Assembly (NCBI RefSeq): GCF_003991225.1
Contig: NZ_JTFC01000031.1
Location: 496,001-560,000, forward strand
Length of the DNA: 64,000 nt
DNA from: Candidatus Kurthia intestinigallinarum
GTDB taxonomy: Bacteria > Bacillota > Bacilli > Bacillales_A > Planococcaceae
Direction: 5' to 3'
The translations under genes and the position numbers were made by a program. Within the stretch, counting starts at the first letter, position 1, and each line of letters opens with the position of its first letter. The notes beneath the pieces were generated by a model. That model made no database searches, was not told the DNA's origin, and worked only from the letters and a program-made list of their open reading frames with translations. Positions 12,870 to 35,480 of this stretch are shown here, one piece after another.

Positions 12870-13412
12870 TTACACGCGCGTGGTAATTTGTACATGTTGT
12901 GCAATATAAGTAGCCTGATGTGCGATACGTTCACGTGCCGCTGCATCCACCTCGTAATGACCATCCGCTAGCTTTGTCACTTGCTTGTCTACTACAAAGA
13001 CGGTATGCGCAATATGTGTTGCACCAAGCACTGTCACAACGGGCTTCAGTGCATAATCAATCGCTAGTAAATGCCCAATAGAGCCGCCAATCGCAATCGG
13101 CCACACTAGCTTTCCTTCTAAGCCCTTTTGCGGAATCAAATCCAGGAAGGTTTTTAAAATCCCTGTGTAAGCTGCTTTATAAATCGGTGTTAAAATGACG
13201 ACAATATCTGCCGCTTCGACCTTTGCAGTCGCCGTTTTAATCGCCTCACTACCAAAATTCGCTAAAATTAAATCCTCTGCCGGTAGCTGATGGACATATA
13301 AGATTTCTGTGTCAATGCCCTGTGCCTGCAAAGCCTGTTCCGCCTGCTGCTGCACCCCGGTTAAACGTGAATAAACTGTATTGCTGCCATTAATTAAAAT
13401 TGCTTTTGTCAT
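12870..13412 (-). CDS. NADPH-dependent FMN reductase (SsuE/MsuE-like)
   Basis: 180 aa flavodoxin-fold reductase starting MTKAILINGSNT, with the family loop TPIYKAAYTGILK and the IAIGGSIGH segment of the SsuE group. It supplies reduced FMN to a partner monooxygenase. The partner gene ends 11 bases upstream on the same strand, and the three ABC transporter genes precede that, so this is the last gene of a five-gene operon for organosulfur (or similar) uptake and oxidation. The product is cytoplasmic. Confidence 0.88.
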   Translation of the reverse strand: MTKAILINGSNTVYSRLTGVQQQAEQALQAQGIDTEILYVHQLPAEDLILANFGSEAIKTATAKVEAADIVVILTPIYKAAYTGILKTFLDLIPQKGLEGKLVWPIAIGGSIGHLLAIDYALKPVVTVLGATHIAHTVFVVDKQVTKLADGHYEVDAAARERIAHQATYIAQHVQITTRV

Positions 13413-13423
13413 GTATAGCCCTC

Positions 13424-14764
13424 CTATTGTGTAACTGCACCTAAAACATCAGATGCAGTCGGTGTTTTCAAGCCTAAGTTTCCACGTAATGTCGTGCTCT
13501 CATACTCTGTACGGAATAGTCCGCGGCGCTGTAATTCTGGAATAACAAGGTTAATAATATCGGTAAAACCTTCTGGGAAATGAGGTGGCATAATATTAAA
13601 GCCATCCGCCGCACCATTTACAAACCATTCCTCTAGCTGATCGACAATTTGCGTTGGCGTTCCGACAATTTCTCGGTGTCCACGAGCACCAGCTACGCGC
13701 TCATATACCTCACGAATCGTCACAAGATTTTCTCGAACGGCTAAATCTCGAATGACATGATAGCGCGTCTGTGGATTAGATGGGTCCGCATTCGGTGCAT
13801 CAAGTGGAAAGGCATCATCAATGTCATACTGTGAAAAATCAGAATCGGTCACACCAGACAAATACTTTAAGCCGACCTCTGGCAAAATATACGAGCTGAG
13901 CTGCTGTTGCTTAGCTCGCGCCTCTTCTTCCGTTTTCGCTACTGTAATAAACACACCCGGCATCACTTTTAAATCATCCGCATGACGGCCATATTTTCTG
14001 AGGCGTCCTTTCACATCTGCATAAAATTGCTGCCCCGCTTCAAGTGTTTGCCAAGCTGTAAAGATGACTTCTGCGGTTTTTGCGGCAAACTCTTTTCCTG
14101 CTTCTGATGAACCCGCCTGCACAAGCACTGGATGCCCTTGCGGTGTTTCCGTCTGATCCAAATAGCCCTCCACATCAAACCATTCGCCATGATGCTCGAC
14201 GCAATGCGTTTTTGCTTTATTTAAAAATTGGCCACTTTCTTTATCTAAAACGAGCGCTTCTTTTTCAACAGAATGCCAAAGCTTTTTGGTCACTTCTACA
14301 AACTCTTCTGCACGTTCATAGCGACGCGCATGTTCTAAATGATGGTCTTTACCAAATAAGGAAGCTTCTTTGCCATTCGATGATGTGACGATATTCCATG
14401 CGGCGCGACCACCCGATAAGTGATCAATGGAGCCAAATTTGCGCGCAAGATGGAAGGGCTCATTATAAGTTGTCGTTGCCGTTGAAACGAAGCCAATATT
14501 TTTTGTCACAGCTTGCAGCGCTGAAATTAATACAATCGGGTCAAACTTCAAGCCTGAGCGATCATTTTCAACAATTTCTTCACCAAAAACATCGGCGAAA
14601 AACACCATATCAAATTTCGCCTTTTCGGCTAATTGCGCCTGCTCTTTAATAAAATCAAACGTAAACGCTTCGTTTGTTTTAGCTGATGGATAGCGCCATG
14701 ACGCCAAATGATGTCCTGGTAAAAAAAAGAATGCCCCTAGCTTCATTTGTTTGGTATTCCTCAT
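13424..14764 (-). CDS. FMN-dependent monooxygenase, NtaA/SnaA/DszA family
   Basis: A luciferase-like (LLM) two-component monooxygenase of about 446 aa. The N-terminus KLGAFFFLPGHHLASWRYP and the later GRAAWNIVTS and HARRYERAEE segments are typical of the NtaA/DszA/SfnG/DmoA family, which oxidises chelators, dibenzothiophene sulfone, dimethyl sulfide and similar compounds with FMNH2. The start at 14764 (MRNTKQMKLG) is set by GGAG 9 bases upstream; longer frames lack a site. The substrate cannot be fixed; the sulfonate-type transporter and FMN reductase suggest an organosulfur compound. Confidence 0.88.
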   Translation of the reverse strand: MRNTKQMKLGAFFFLPGHHLASWRYPSAKTNEAFTFDFIKEQAQLAEKAKFDMVFFADVFGEEIVENDRSGLKFDPIVLISALQAVTKNIGFVSTATTTYNEPFHLARKFGSIDHLSGGRAAWNIVTSSNGKEASLFGKDHHLEHARRYERAEEFVEVTKKLWHSVEKEALVLDKESGQFLNKAKTHCVEHHGEWFDVEGYLDQTETPQGHPVLVQAGSSEAGKEFAAKTAEVIFTAWQTLEAGQQFYADVKGRLRKYGRHADDLKVMPGVFITVAKTEEEARAKQQQLSSYILPEVGLKYLSGVTDSDFSQYDIDDAFPLDAPNADPSNPQTRYHVIRDLAVRENLVTIREVYERVAGARGHREIVGTPTQIVDQLEEWFVNGAADGFNIMPPHFPEGFTDIINLVIPELQRRGLFRTEYESTTLRGNLGLKTPTASDVLGAVTQ

Positions 14765-14805
14765 ATACAACATCTCCAATTCATTTACTTGGTATTTAAA
14801 CATAC

Positions 14806-15813
14806 TTAATACGGATTAAATTCATTCGTATACATCGATTTCGTATCAATGTCTCCTGCTGGTAAATCATCTACACGCTGTAATGGCTCGATCCAGCGAC
14901 TGAAGTCCTCGTCCGTAAATGTACCACCCTTTGTCGCAATACCTGTGCCACTCCAATATTGTAAATTTTCAATTGGCTCATCACGATCACGTTTTTCCAT
15001 AATCGATTCTAAGCGCTCGACCACTTTATCGCGCTCAGTCGTATTCATCCACTCGATGGCCTTCGCCACACCTTGTGTAAAATCTTTTACCTCATCTGGA
15101 TTCTCTTTAATAAACTCGGTCGTAAAGAAGTAGCTACCGGCATTATAAGCCTTTGAAAAAGCATCCATATCACGGAAAATGAGTTGCGTTTTTTTACGTT
15201 CTACAGCCTTATCACGAAATACACCATTCAGTGCGGCGACATCGACCTGCCCGTTAATAACAGCCTGCTCCGCATTCACTTGTGGCATCGTCACGAACTC
15301 AATTTTTTCAATATCCGCATCACTAACGCCCGATGTATGTAAGTATTCTCGAATGGCCATCTCATAATGCGCTCCCCGAATATTAACGGCCACTTTTTTA
15401 CCAATCAAATCTTCGGGCTCTTTAATCGTTGTGCCCTTTTTGCCGAAGAAGCCAAGAAAGACTTTTTCATTACTACCATACGATGTCACGACCGATTTCA
15501 CTTTGACACCCTTGGCGATGGATTTTAAAATCGCGCCGTTAAAGGACATCCCGTAATCTAACTGCTTCGTCGCCACAAATTGAATGCTTTCCGGTCCACC
15601 CGTATAAGCTCCCTGATAATCGAGCGACACTTTTTTAAAGTAGCCTAAATCCTGCGCCACCTCTGCTGGGTTTACAATGCCTGTCTCTCCTTGATAACGC
15701 AGTGGATATTTACCATCCGCCGCCTTTGATGTAGCGTCCTCTGTCTTGTCACCACAAGCGCTAAGTGACACCGCCACTACTGCTGCGCTCAGCAATGCTG
15801 CAAATTTTTTCAT
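14806..15813 (-). CDS. ABC transporter substrate-binding lipoprotein, sulfonate/nitrate type (SsuA-like)
   Basis: 335 aa. A lipoprotein signal peptide with lipobox LSAC (Cys20) anchors it to the outer face of the membrane. The mature part has the NMT1/SsuA periplasmic-binding fold, with segments such as GPESIQFVATKQLDYG and EQAVINGQVDVAAL that fit the aliphatic sulfonate, taurine or nitrate binding group. It lies between the permease gene and the monooxygenase gene. The exact ligand is unknown; the neighbourhood points to a sulfur compound. Confidence 0.88.
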   Translation of the reverse strand: MKKFAALLSAAVVAVSLSACGDKTEDATSKAADGKYPLRYQGETGIVNPAEVAQDLGYFKKVSLDYQGAYTGGPESIQFVATKQLDYGMSFNGAILKSIAKGVKVKSVVTSYGSNEKVFLGFFGKKGTTIKEPEDLIGKKVAVNIRGAHYEMAIREYLHTSGVSDADIEKIEFVTMPQVNAEQAVINGQVDVAALNGVFRDKAVERKKTQLIFRDMDAFSKAYNAGSYFFTTEFIKENPDEVKDFTQGVAKAIEWMNTTERDKVVERLESIMEKRDRDEPIENLQYWSGTGIATKGGTFTDEDFSRWIEPLQRVDDLPAGDIDTKSMYTNEFNPY

Positions 15814-15825
15814 TATTGATTCCCC

Positions 15826-16638
15826 CTATTTCACTGGTTGTTTCCATTTTGAAAAATGCTTTTCGATTGCCAGTAATGTTTGGTTAATGACAATTCCTAA
15901 AAGTGAGATTGTTAAAATTCCCGCATACATCTCAGGAATTTGGAAATTGTATTGTGTGAAGGTGATATAATAGCCAAGCCCCGCCTTTGCGCCAATCATC
16001 TCTGCGGCGATTAGTACGAGGATGGCCCCTGTCCCTGCCATGCGAATGCCCGTAAAAATCGTTGGCACAGAGGCTGGTAAAATGACTTTTTTAAATAACT
16101 GAAAATCCGATAAATTCATCGATTTTGCTGACTTTATATACAGCGGGTCGACATCACGTACCGCCGCAATCGTATTTAATAAAATCGGCCAAATACATGC
16201 GAAAATAATAATGCCCACTTTTGATACTTCACCGATGCCAAGTAATAAAATAAAGACCGGTAATAGCGCAAGTGCTGCCGTATTACGGAAAAGCTCAAGC
16301 ACTGGATTAAAAAGCTCGCGTGCTAGTGGATACCAACCAATAAGTAGCCCAAGTGGTACCGCAACTGCAATTGCTATAAAGAAGCCAAGTGCTGAACGCA
16401 CAATACTCGCGCTAAAATGCTTCCATAATTCGCCGCTGACAAGCAACTGCCACCACGTTTTTGCGATTTCTGAAAATGGCGGGAAAAACACGCGGTCCAC
16501 TAAACCAATACGCGGTGCAATCTCCCATAAAGCAAGTAGTACAACTAATACAATGGATTGCTTAAATAGCTTTGTGCCTATCGTAAATCCGCTCGTTTCC
16601 TGCGCTGGTTTTGCGATAGCTTTTTTAATCGTAACCAT
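15826..16638 (-). CDS. ABC transporter permease, sulfonate type (SsuC-like)
   Basis: 270 aa with about six membrane helices and the binding-protein-dependent permease motif (SVPTIFTGIRMAGTGAIL region, contacting the ATPase). The N-terminus is a short cytoplasmic tail before the first helix (QSIVLVVLLALWEIAP). It is placed 12 bases after the ATPase gene and 12 bases before the binding-protein gene. The product forms the channel of the uptake system. Confidence 0.92.
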   Translation of the reverse strand: MVTIKKAIAKPAQETSGFTIGTKLFKQSIVLVVLLALWEIAPRIGLVDRVFFPPFSEIAKTWWQLLVSGELWKHFSASIVRSALGFFIAIAVAVPLGLLIGWYPLARELFNPVLELFRNTAALALLPVFILLLGIGEVSKVGIIIFACIWPILLNTIAAVRDVDPLYIKSAKSMNLSDFQLFKKVILPASVPTIFTGIRMAGTGAILVLIAAEMIGAKAGLGYYITFTQYNFQIPEMYAGILTISLLGIVINQTLLAIEKHFSKWKQPVK

Positions 16639-16650
16639 CCAATTCCTCCT

Positions 16651-17439
16651 TTAAATATAAGCCCCCTGGTATTCCTTCTCATGCAGCTCACTCCATACCT
16701 GATGACGAATGCTTGAAAATTCACTGCTTGAACGAAAATCAGCATCTTGTAGTCGGTGCTTCGTATCATTATCGATTATCGTTTTGACCTTTCCTGGATT
16801 CGCTGACAGCACCGCAATTCGCTGACCTAAATACACGGCCTCATCAATGCCATGTGTAATAAAGACAATCGTTTTTCCAGTCTTTTGCCAAATACGCACA
16901 AGCTCCTCCTGTAGATTTTCACGCGTTTGTGCATCAAGTGCCGCAAACGGTTCATCCATTAATAGCACCTCCGGATCATAGGCGAGGCTTCTCGCAATCG
17001 CGACGCGCTGCTTCATACCGCCTGATAATTCATTTGGATAATGATCATAAAATTGCTGAAGACCGACTAAATCCATATAATATTTTGCCTGCTGTAGCCG
17101 TTCTTTTTTCGAAATACCCTTTGCCTCTAAGCCAAACGCCACATTTTGTAGTGCCGTACGCCATGGATACAAAGCATATTGCTGAAAAACGATAGCACGG
17201 TCTAAACCCGGTCCTGTAATTTCCTGCTCGTTAATTAAAATGCGTCCTTTCGTTAGCTTCGTTAAACCACCTAACATATCTAACAATGTCGACTTCCCAC
17301 AACCCGAAGGCCCTACTACTGTTAAAAATTCACCTTCGCGAACCTTTAAGTTTACATCTGACACTGCTGTGAATGGTGGTTTGCCGTTTCGTGCTGGAAA
17401 TGTTTTTTCGACAAACTCAAACGAGATTTTATTTTTCAT
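16651..17439 (-). CDS. ABC transporter ATP-binding protein, sulfonate type (SsuB-like)
   Basis: About 262 aa with Walker A GPSGCGKST, Q-loop FQQYALYPW, signature LSGGMKQR, Walker B LLMDEPFAALD and H-loop ITHGIDEA. The set is typical of nitrate/sulfonate/taurine importers. A first ATG at 17445 is only 2 bases from the GGAAGG site; the ATG at 17439 has 8-base spacing and is preferred. It is the first gene of the operon, about 50 bases after a terminator-like leader hairpin, so expression may be controlled by antitermination. Confidence 0.92.
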   Translation of the reverse strand: MKNKISFEFVEKTFPARNGKPPFTAVSDVNLKVREGEFLTVVGPSGCGKSTLLDMLGGLTKLTKGRILINEQEITGPGLDRAIVFQQYALYPWRTALQNVAFGLEAKGISKKERLQQAKYYMDLVGLQQFYDHYPNELSGGMKQRVAIARSLAYDPEVLLMDEPFAALDAQTRENLQEELVRIWQKTGKTIVFITHGIDEAVYLGQRIAVLSANPGKVKTIIDNDTKHRLQDADFRSSSEFSSIRHQVWSELHEKEYQGAYI

Positions 17440-17445
17440 CGACAT

Positions 17446-17600
17446 CGCCTTCCTTATAATTCATAGTGGTTTAATAGGTATTGAGGTGTAAAAAAAGGCT
17501 TCCGTGCCCGAAGAAATTATTCTTCCTGTACGAAAGCCTCTGGTTGTCCAGTGAGCATTTTTTAAACGCTAAAGCCTATTAACTTGATAGGAATACTTTA
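17446..17600 (-). promoter_or_regulatory. Leader of the sulfur operon with two copies of a palindromic box
   Basis: Two similar boxes flank the leader: 17574-17595 (core CCTAT-N7-ATAGG) and 17458-17482 (AATTCATAG...AATAGGTATT). Both resemble the AT-rich ATAGGAAT-type sites used by CymR-like regulators of sulfur genes in Bacillales; this resemblance is from memory, not a search. A promoter-like TTGCGC, 17 bases, TAAAGT lies just upstream of the first box on the minus strand. Between the boxes is a conserved-looking stretch, CACTGGACAACCAGAGGC, leading into a terminator hairpin. It does not match the S-box (SAM) or T-box core. Confidence 0.5.
17490..17539 (-). terminator. Leader terminator (possible attenuator) upstream of the sulfur operon
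   Basis: On the minus strand AGGCTT.CGT...AGAA pairs with TTCT...ACG.AAGCCT, followed by seven T. It stands about 50 bases before the ATPase start codon, after a leader of at least 60 bases. Since ktrC upstream already has a terminator inside the repeat, this one most likely belongs to the leader. Confidence 0.7.
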
Positions 17601-17653
17601 ACAGCTATTCCTTTTTTGCGCAAGTAGTTTTCTGAATATTTTAAATTCGTATT

Positions 17654-17794
17654 AAAAAAGTGATTGGGCCAGAATACGTTATTTTCCTTTTTTAGCGTTC
17701 GCAACGAAAAACCGGAACCGCACCACAGCGCGATTCCGGTTTTTCTTATGCTCATATGAACGGTTGTTTTTATACATATGTCCCAGCCTCTTTT
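17654..17794. repeat. Intergenic repeat element, copy A (about 141 bp)
   Basis: The most divergent of four copies. The left end reads GATTGGGCCA and the right end TGTCCCAGCCTCTTTT; inside are the shared block CCTTTTTTAGCGTTCGCAAC and a hairpin AAAAACCGGAA...TTCCGGTTTTT (17707-17744). The right end overlaps the ktrC stop codon, so the hairpin serves as its terminator. Confidence 0.85.
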
Positions 17795-33198: not shown

Positions 33199-33259
33199 GT
33201 TCTCATCCCCATTATTAAAAAAAGCCATCTCAAAAAACCATTGAGACAGCTTTTATTTA

Positions 33260-33973
33260 TTAGATTTTACGTAAATCTTGCATAATTTCTGTTTTTGATT
33301 TTGTTTTTTCATCGATTTCTTTAATGACTTTTGCTGGAACACCTGCAACAACTGTATAAGCTGGTACATCTTGTGTCACAATCGCGCCAGCCGCAACAAC
33401 TGCACCTTCGCCTACTTGTACACCTTCTAAAAGAACGGCATTTGCGCCAACCATTACATTGTTGCCAAGCACAACCGGATCTGCACTTGGTGGTTCAATA
33501 ACGCCTGCTAACACAGCGCCTGCTCCAACGTGACAATCTTCCCCAACTGTTGCACGACCACCTAATACAGCATTCATATCGATCATTGTACGTGCGCCGA
33601 TTTCTGCACCAATATTAATTACTGCACCCATCATAATAACTGCATTGTCACCGATAGCTACTTCGTCACGAATAATTGCACCTGGTTCGATGCGCGCATT
33701 GATTCCTTTTAAATCAAGTGTTGGTACTGCTGAGTTACGACGATCATTTTCAATAACATAATCTTCGATAATGTTGTTGTTCGCCTCTAACACTGCTTCG
33801 ATTTCTTTCCAGTTACCGAATACAACAGCTGTATTCCCTTCACCGAAAACTTGGCTATCTGTACCAAAATCAAGTGCCGCTACACCTTCACCTTTTACAT
33901 AAACTTTTACGGGTGTTGCTTTTTCTGCATTTGCTAAGTATGCAATAATTTCTTGTGCATTTAATTTTTCCAT
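33260..33973 (-). CDS. dapH: Tetrahydrodipicolinate N-acetyltransferase
   Basis: 237 aa left-handed beta-helix (hexapeptide repeat) acyltransferase: repeats such as [25 protein letters not shown] and [16 protein letters not shown] run through residues 90-200. It acetylates tetrahydrodipicolinate on the acetylase branch of diaminopimelate and lysine synthesis. The ribosome site TAGGAGG is strong. An 18-bp palindrome lies just upstream of it. It forms a unit with ykuR; no lysine riboswitch is seen in front. Confidence 0.95.
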
Positions 33974-35009: not shown

Positions 35010-35037
35010 AAAAAAAGAGGCATCAATTGATGCCTCT
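35010..35037 (-). terminator. Terminator after darB
   Basis: The perfect palindrome AGAGGCATCAATTGATGCCTCT (two 11-base halves) with a T run on the minus strand, located between darB and ccpC. Confidence 0.9.
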
Positions 35038-35042
35038 GATCG

Positions 35043-35480
35043 TTACGATTGATATACATATTTTTTTAATTGTTTTAAAATGACACGTCTCGTCATAATG
35101 CCAACAAATCGCCCTGCATCATCTACAACGCATAAAAATGCATGGTTGATAACAAGCTCCAATGCTTTACTGAATGTCTCATGTACATTTAACGTCGCAA
35201 TATTTTCATCCATGACTTCATCAACTACTTTGTCAGCTAATTTATCGTATTCGATGCGCTCTAAACCTAAGATGGAATCCATAATCATGCGCGCACTGAT
35301 TAGGCCACAAAAACGGTATGTTGGATCGAGTACGGGAATTGCTGAGTAACCACTCTTTGTTAAAACAAGTAGTGCATGCTCGACATTATTACCGAGCTGC
35401 ACATGCGCTACTTTCTCAGCAGGAATGATAAACTCTTCTACGGGCATTTCTAAAAATTCTTTCTTACTTAAAGAAATCAT
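35043..35480 (-). CDS. darB: CBS-domain c-di-AMP receptor DarB (YkuL/CbpB)
   Basis: 145 aa made of two CBS motifs (about residues 15-65 and 80-140), including AHVQLGNNVEHALLVLTKSGYSAIPVLD and FVGIMTRR. Size, sequence type and position upstream of ccpC match YkuL, now called DarB, which binds c-di-AMP and in its free form stimulates the (p)ppGpp synthetase Rel in B. subtilis. It is separated from ccpC by a terminator. Together with KtrC/KtrD in this window, it belongs to the potassium and c-di-AMP network. Confidence 0.88.
   Translation of the reverse strand: MISLSKKEFLEMPVEEFIIPAEKVAHVQLGNNVEHALLVLTKSGYSAIPVLDPTYRFCGLISARMIMDSILGLERIEYDKLADKVVDEVMDENIATLNVHETFSKALELVINHAFLCVVDDAGRFVGIMTRRVILKQLKKYVYQS

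Follow-up and report, generated by a model that had tools for sequence, protein, structure and literature searches.

The window, by which we mean the whole stretch of 64,000 nucleotides analysed here, contains a five-gene operon whose leader is, as judged by sequence comparison, one copy of an RNA that recurs before sulfur genes in many Gram-positive bacteria. We think it likely that this leader is a sulfur-regulon transcription attenuator under a CymR-controlled promoter, in which a small hairpin, P2ext, competes with an intrinsic terminator and is helped by a trans-acting factor. The element probably decides between an early stop and read-through into the genes. Sulfur control in Firmicutes is usually described in terms of CymR, the S-box and the T-box. 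A further RNA layer in about 29% of the sampled Bacilli (116/398) would alter our view of how these organisms turn to sulfate, sulfonates and other organosulfur sources, and an attenuator family would point to an unidentified RNA-binding regulator, for which a concrete candidate is at hand.

Operon layout and CymR-type boxes

The operon (ssuBCA/monooxygenase/reductase), which belongs to a genome of the genus Kurthia, combines an Ssu/Tau-type ABC transporter with a monooxygenase and an FMN reductase (Table 1). The potassium-channel-type gene upstream ends with its own terminator (17707-17744). The predicted promoter lies upstream of the leader and overlaps box 1, a CymR-type operator. Its position and spacing are kept in four Kurthia leaders, with the elements TTGCGG/TATAGT and TTGCAT/TATACT in relatives and a spacer of 17 nt in the sequences inspected. 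The transcription start site is inferred, as no start has been mapped. Inspection by eye revealed no good promoter downstream of the leader terminator.

The first-pass annotation had described two palindromic boxes bracketing a leader that contains CACTGGACAACCAGAGGC and a full terminator about 50 bases before the first gene. This layout was confirmed on the minus strand: CACTGGACAACCAGAGGC lies at about 17536-17553, and the seven-T tract of the terminator (17490-17496) is followed after 44 nt by the first gene, which starts at 17445.

Table 1. Predicted features of the locus in the order of transcription
Feature	Coordinates	Strand	Basis or remark
Sigma-A promoter (predicted)	17595..17623	-	-35 TTGCGC, 17-nt spacer, -10 TAAAGT
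Box 1, operator of CymR type across the inferred start site	17572..17594	.	18.98 bits, second-best site of the window
Leader RNA of ~99 nt, terminator included; member of the putative attenuator family	17490..17588	-	R2 match
P2ext, putative antiterminator hairpin GCU-CA-CUGG-ACAA-CCAG-A-GGC	17536..17556	-	Covariation across relatives; folding
Intrinsic terminator	17490..17541	-	-23.8 kcal/mol; pairing in 97.5% of the terminator cells of relatives
Box 2, second CymR-type box, 8 bp past the T tract	17459..17481	.	19.2 bits, best site of the window
ABC transporter ATP-binding protein, Ssu/Tau type	16651..17445	-	NCBIfam matches under equivalog cut-offs
ABC permease, Ssu/Tau type	15826..16638	-	NCBIfam search
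SsuA-like substrate-binding lipoprotein	14806..15813	-	TIGR01728, 71 bits, under cut-off
NtaA/DmoA-family FMN-dependent monooxygenase	13424..14803	-	TIGR03860, 543 bits, over cut-off
SsuE-type NADPH-dependent FMN reductase	12870..13412	-	TIGR03567, 195 bits, over cut-off

The boxes were scored with a symmetric matrix from seven distinct cysK-upstream boxes of eight Kurthia genomes. The third-best site of the 64-kb window reached 11.05 bits, and none of 60 shuffled windows held a site with the score of box 1 or box 2. The two boxes are not chance occurrences. This test is only semi-independent, because the cysK boxes were picked after the CC-N13-GG shape had been seen. Such a box, or one a single step from it, precedes cysK in all eight Kurthia genomes, and the spacing is also that of the published B. 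subtilis cysK site (PMC11487621).

The genome encodes one clear CymR (L088, 139 aa; NF047409, 236.7 bits against a cut-off of 195), whose gene adjoins a NifS-like desulfurase gene. In the same genome, similar boxes also lie before a gene for a MetN-type transporter and before a fragment of an SfnG-like gene. The earlier suggestion of a CymR-like site thus has computational support: CymR is encoded, and both boxes match the CymR-type boxes of the genus. The locus shares box form, CC-N13-GG spacing and the presence of a CymR gene with the CymR operators of cysteine-metabolism genes but differs in having two boxes that flank a putative attenuator. Membership of the operon in the CymR regulon is suggested by the regulator gene and the operator resemblance; CymR binding itself is inferred, without binding or expression data.

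In the four Kurthia leaders, boxes 1 and 2 are 113, 113, 118 and 117 bp apart (as helical phasing for a conceivable DNA loop, 10.76, 10.76, 11.24 and 11.14 turns at 10.5 bp per turn), and box 2 starts 6-8 bp past the T tract. In K. massiliensis and genome G089 box 2 scored lower, at 9.6 and 9.9 bits, yet was still second in the leader.

A broad CymR-like pattern was tried and rejected as too loose, giving 184/207 matches against 136/143 for its reversed control. The SfnG-like frame (L134:1508-1801) behind its CymR-type box is only a fragment that then breaks, through either gene decay or a fault in the assembly. With its three in-frame stops, an Rrf2-family gene (L090; G000:C175:150107-150463) is a decayed relative of the CymR/IscR group. 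The closest non-Kurthia relatives of the operon's ATPase are mostly actinomycetes (Microbispora, Streptosporangium, Sphaerisporangium and Sinosporangium; 62-65% identity), with Firmicutes relatives at no more than 54%. Given these actinomycete relatives, the operon may possibly have been acquired by transfer.

P2ext and the terminator as alternative helices

The leader folded at -41.7 kcal/mol against a shuffle mean of -26.2 (z -4.36), and none of 200 shuffles did as well. A generic terminator scan of the leader reported none, though folding shows the terminator clearly; the 8-nt loop limit and short stem of the scan are unsuited to so long a hairpin. P2ext is a 7-bp hairpin, GCU-NA-CUGG-ACAA-CCAG-A-GGC, with the general form GCY-NA-4 bp-ANAA-4 bp-A-GGC. 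The 5' arm of the terminator begins with AGAGGC, which is the 3' arm of P2ext. Since the GGC that pairs with GCU in P2ext belongs to this AGAGGC, the two structures are mutually exclusive. The leader thereby fulfils the criterion for an attenuator, namely two conserved, mutually exclusive helices with a common arm, one of them an intrinsic terminator. That termination depends on conditions is an inference, without Term-seq or in vitro transcription data.

The leader is present in four of the eight Kurthia genomes, the same four that hold an orthologous binding protein at an identity of at least 56%; K. massiliensis additionally has a paralogue of this protein at 44%. GCTMACTGG..CCAGAGGCTTTC is kept in the Kurthia leaders, and the upper terminator stem is swapped for a different but still paired sequence. 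The structure could not be judged from Kurthia alone, because only four sequences were at hand and P2 never varied among them. The pattern CTGGN{3,6}CCAGAGGCTTTC occurred in 8 of 261 family genomes, four times as a Kurthia leader and four times without a hairpin-terminator. A direct DNA search with the leader found 18 of 151 family genomes, outside Kurthia mostly as short or coding matches. A narrow, Kurthia-only origin was our first reading and was abandoned after the covariance search.

Covariance model R1 was made from the four Kurthia leaders. The alignment A4 (80 distinct family sequences, 86 rows) was drawn from the best 100 R1 hits without 14 judged to be chance (L183, L202, L205, L210, L212, L213, L226, L244, L245, L254, L256, L257, L258 and L261); the main matches of L253, L255, L259, L260 and L262 did not pass the E threshold, and additional tandem matches came in. 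Model R2 was built from A4. The wider set A5 (65 distinct sequences, 66 rows) took as input 21 of 23 inspected R2 loci (without L264 and L265), 20 regions, and L056, L049 and L048; L053, a near-copy of L049, was kept out.

P2ext was paired in all 559 cells of A4. Both sides had changed in four of its pairs (28 cells, against a mean of 3.7 in shuffles, with this level reached in 0 of 500). Sliding the partner by one column as a control left 0-1 pairs and at most 7 cells with changes on both sides. The terminator was paired in 97.5% of cells, with such changes in six of nine pairs. In A5, P2ext was paired in 99.3% of 449 cells and had changes on both sides in six of seven pairs (95 cells against 32.4 in shuffles, 0/500), with 97.9% of terminator cells paired. 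The first-pass annotation had proposed a covariance check on homologous leaders, and this check found covarying structure besides the terminator.

Pairing of the inner stem is partly selected, because R1 and R2 were built on the P2 inner stem and the terminator and so favour paired matches; the shuffles do not control for relatedness of the sequences. The three outer pairs of P2ext, which lie outside both models, nevertheless covary, as GC/UA/AU at the base, CG/UA and UG/CG/UA. These outer pairs use the same GGC as the terminator. Outer pairs and a GGC common to both helices are, as far as an alignment can tell, the signature of an antiterminator set against a terminator. The unpaired A residues of P2ext were present in 83 and 86 of the 86 rows of A4, and each A of the NA/A motif in 65 of the 66 rows of A5. 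In the columns of both alignments P2ext is a single hairpin with a loop of 4-6 nt.

Distribution and target genes of the RNA family

R2 matched the window leader at 17588-17489 (79.9 bits, E 6.9e-17); this leader was itself in the set from which both models descend. At E<=0.1, R1 found matches in 91 of the 261 family genomes, some of them due to chance. R2, run at E<=0.01, matched 116 of the 398 Bacilli genomes and 61 of 146 genera. The element extends to Clostridia, with copies in Ruminiclostridium cellobioparum, in a Lachnospiraceae MAG and in a Clostridiales MAG, where it precedes a metK-like gene.

An explicit hairpin test required the three outer pairs, the NA/A loop and the four inner pairs. 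It was passed by 82 of the best 100 R1 family hits, compared with 1 of 2000 shuffled leaders and 1 of 300 random upstream windows. Among these best 100 hits, sulfur genes lay downstream of 76 of the 82 hairpin-positive and 2 of the 18 hairpin-negative ones (Fisher p 7e-12). The gene classes in this count are our own cluster labels, with representatives checked. The largest clusters downstream of the same 100 hits were sumT (17), cysH (15), SsuE-like (12) and ABC ATPase (11), followed by sulfate-binding protein (8) and luciferase-like monooxygenase (7), then MetI-like, MetQ-like, SsuA-like and CysC. Representatives scored above NCBIfam cut-offs for CysH, uroporphyrinogen-III methyltransferase, SsuE, sulfate-binding protein, a PRK08247-type methionine biosynthesis enzyme and CysC; those of the MetQ-, SfnG- and ssu-ABC-like clusters fell below. 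The hairpin-positive exceptions were genes not clearly linked to sulfur, namely a CitMHS permease (L203), threonine synthase-like genes (L229, L240) and one sigma-70-region-4 protein (L234), together with two arylsulfotransferase-like genes.

Behind the inspected R2 hits lie cysH and genes for sulfate binding, sulfonate transport and monooxygenases, besides TauE-like and MetE-like ones, with names assigned by eye except in clusters with NCBIfam-checked representatives. The element also stands before an annotated ssuD in Cytobacillus oceanisediminis and is found in Niallia taxi. R2 counted six matches in the window's own genome. Further copies read there are a divergent pair before cysH and a sulfate-binding gene (L286), one before sumT (L255/L287) and two in L134. 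The recurrence before many other sulfur operons goes beyond what the first-pass annotation had proposed. Tandem copies occur in L211 and L259, and an opposite-strand copy in L217.

Some matches were of a different kind. In L200 and L234, an element with a GUCC/GGAC outer stem precedes the sigma-70-region-4 protein, a target that is not sulfur-like. In genomes of family f3 (L300, L301) a MarR-type regulator gene lies behind the element and is possibly a lineage-specific sulfur regulator. Hairpin-like matches beside phage-like genes in small genomes of family f26 (L285, L305) look phage-borne or unrelated, reflecting either chance or phage use of the signal. Two weak R2 matches on the minus strand of the window, at 35011-35084 (24 bits) and 33216-33290 (19 bits), are probably ordinary terminators.

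Rfam 15 gave no match in the window at the gathering threshold and none for the leader (17440-17620) at E<=1, the S-box (SAM-I), T-box and PyrR binding site models included. Nor did it match the elements of 20 further loci, where its three hits, a SAM riboswitch and two Bacillaceae-1 RNAs, lay outside the elements. No description of the attenuator family was found in the open-access literature searched, with subscription papers mostly outside the scope of the search. The initial suggestions that the leader is neither S-box nor T-box, and that it may be an undescribed leader RNA, are thus borne out: the first by the absence of an Rfam match, the second computationally, by the covarying structure, the class-wide family and that same absence.

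Proposed switch, its alternatives and a candidate factor

Our proposal builds on the promoter, boxes, terminator and P2ext identified from sequence above. When cysteine is plentiful, CymR at box 1 would repress initiation. Polymerase that escapes would transcribe the leader of about 100 nt, in which the terminator would win over P2ext and transcription would stop. Stopping is taken as the default because the terminator is far stronger (-24 to -28 kcal/mol, against -5.5 kcal/mol for P2ext alone). When sulfur is scarce, a trans factor would stabilise P2ext and allow read-through into the operon. The same difference in strength means that the switch needs a helper, and none has been identified; it would most likely be an RNA-binding protein recognising the conserved NA/A internal loop and the adjacent stem. 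As box 2 starts 6-8 bp past the T tract, CymR bound there would stand in the way of polymerase close to the stop point, possibly as a roadblock. Which way the switch works, whether a trans factor exists and of what kind, and what box 2 does are all inferred, without expression, binding or termination data.

Of the alternatives, a small-molecule riboswitch, in which a sulfur metabolite is bound by the hairpin, with or without the sequence upstream of it, survives best, and we regard it as unlikely. Association with a single pathway and class-wide spread are riboswitch-like features, and the conserved unpaired A residues could make a binding site. However, conservation in A4 and A5 begins at the hairpin and covers only about 21 nt. 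The upstream columns are variable, and the sequence there is the end of the preceding reading frame in 4 of 69 cases tested (likewise, by eye, in L281). No aptamer conserved beyond the expression platform was found in either alignment, and we know of no riboswitch aptamer as small as about 21 nt.

It is less probable still that the terminator alone matters, as an insulator or fixed attenuator under CymR, and that the hairpin is incidental. CymR-type boxes by themselves could regulate the operon, and the ssuB-like gene of genome G064 (L022) has such a box without the leader element. Against this, P2ext covaries independently, its three unmodelled outer pairs included; its NA/A residues are nearly invariant, and the hairpin is almost absent from random upstream windows and shuffled leaders. 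Ribosome-mediated attenuation through a leader peptide (ATG CTC ACT GGA ... TAA, 13 codons across the hairpin) can practically be set aside despite a K. massiliensis frame with the same LTGQPEAF core when translated by eye, as it has no run of cysteine or methionine codons, the window ATG lacks a ribosome site, a 1-nt loop insertion in G089 breaks the frame and keeps the stem, and loop length differs between relatives while the stem pairs.

The attenuator proposed here resembles several known systems. S-box and T-box leaders likewise use terminators to control genes for sulfur or amino acids in Firmicutes, but the window leader has no aptamer or specifier domain. In the RAT systems of BglG/LicT, a small protein-bound hairpin overlaps the 5' arm of an intrinsic terminator and termination is the default. 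The predicted arrangement here is alike in the overlap and the default, whereas its sequence and internal-loop pattern appear to differ from those of RAT, and its genes serve sulfur rather than sugar; no PTS genes were seen next to the elements inspected. ANTAR targets consist of two hexaloop hairpins that form a protein-dependent antiterminator in competition with a terminator. The window element shares this competition but is one hairpin with a loop of 4-6 nt and so does not fit the ANTAR definition.

Two candidates of Naville & Gautheret (2010) are also terminator-based and lie before sulfonate transporter operons in bacilli: the ABC-leader, an attenuator candidate before an alkanesulfonate transporter operon, and a second before a sulfonate ABC operon and an unknown gene (PMC2965389). 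The portion of that paper available to us covers a few Bacillus loci and gives neither mechanism nor family. Both candidates may be members of the attenuator family, an identity put forward without alignment comparison. In B. methanolicus, 'PyrR binding sites' are annotated beside SAM riboswitches at ssu and metN (PMC4342826). These too are hairpin-terminators before sulfur operons, but no PyrR match was obtained in the window at E<=1; we can only guess that the annotations are really the attenuator element.

A factor for the hairpin should be findable, since the hairpin is small, modular, present in tandem and repeated upstream of numerous genes in a single pathway. When reading frames close to elements were clustered, a protein of about 100 residues formed the only unnamed cluster in at least nine genomes. 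Its family spans about 90-130 residues, with the conserved pattern LPDL.F...C......N.G.Y.TID...Y..G......RR ... FG.GGL...L..F, and had no Pfam, NCBIfam or PDB-sequence match; two sub-threshold Pfam hits were regarded as chance. In the window's own genome (L134), the gene for an 89-residue member follows a CymR-type box scoring 13.64 bits, a promoter-like pair and, in tandem, two hairpin-terminators; the outer stem of one of these is GGU/GCC, again compensatory. Control of its own gene through the element would be typical of an antiterminator protein. We suggest only tentatively that the small protein is an antiterminator that binds P2ext, controls itself via the element and forms a second layer beneath CymR, in a new sulfur RNA system of Firmicutes. 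The unknown gene of the Naville & Gautheret candidate may be the gene for this protein (PMC2965389).

The association of protein and element is mostly circular, because nine of the ten chromosomal loci were taken for holding an element; only L134 was chosen otherwise, by its CymR-like box. In a loose hairpin-terminator test, 8 of the 10 had an element no more than 700 nt before the PDL motif of the protein. The two failures were L169, which is cut at the locus end, and L289, which fails the test itself. The background was 229 of 3000 windows, taken from analysed loci of which many bear elements. None of six plasmid relatives examined (13 records) had an element directly upstream, and two of the six had a strong R2 match within 8 kb.

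On two Priestia megaterium plasmids (L307, L311) a relative of the protein lies in a hydroxyarylic-acid decarboxylase operon, not a sulfur operon, between the genes for subunits B and C and with long gaps on both sides; in L307 a terminator-like hairpin without P2ext stands upstream of it. The family may serve more than sulfur. Riboflavin kinase genes adjoin the gene of the unknown protein in L227, L289 and L308, and in L227 and L289 they lie behind the element. Such neighbours fit a supply of FMN for sulfur monooxygenases.
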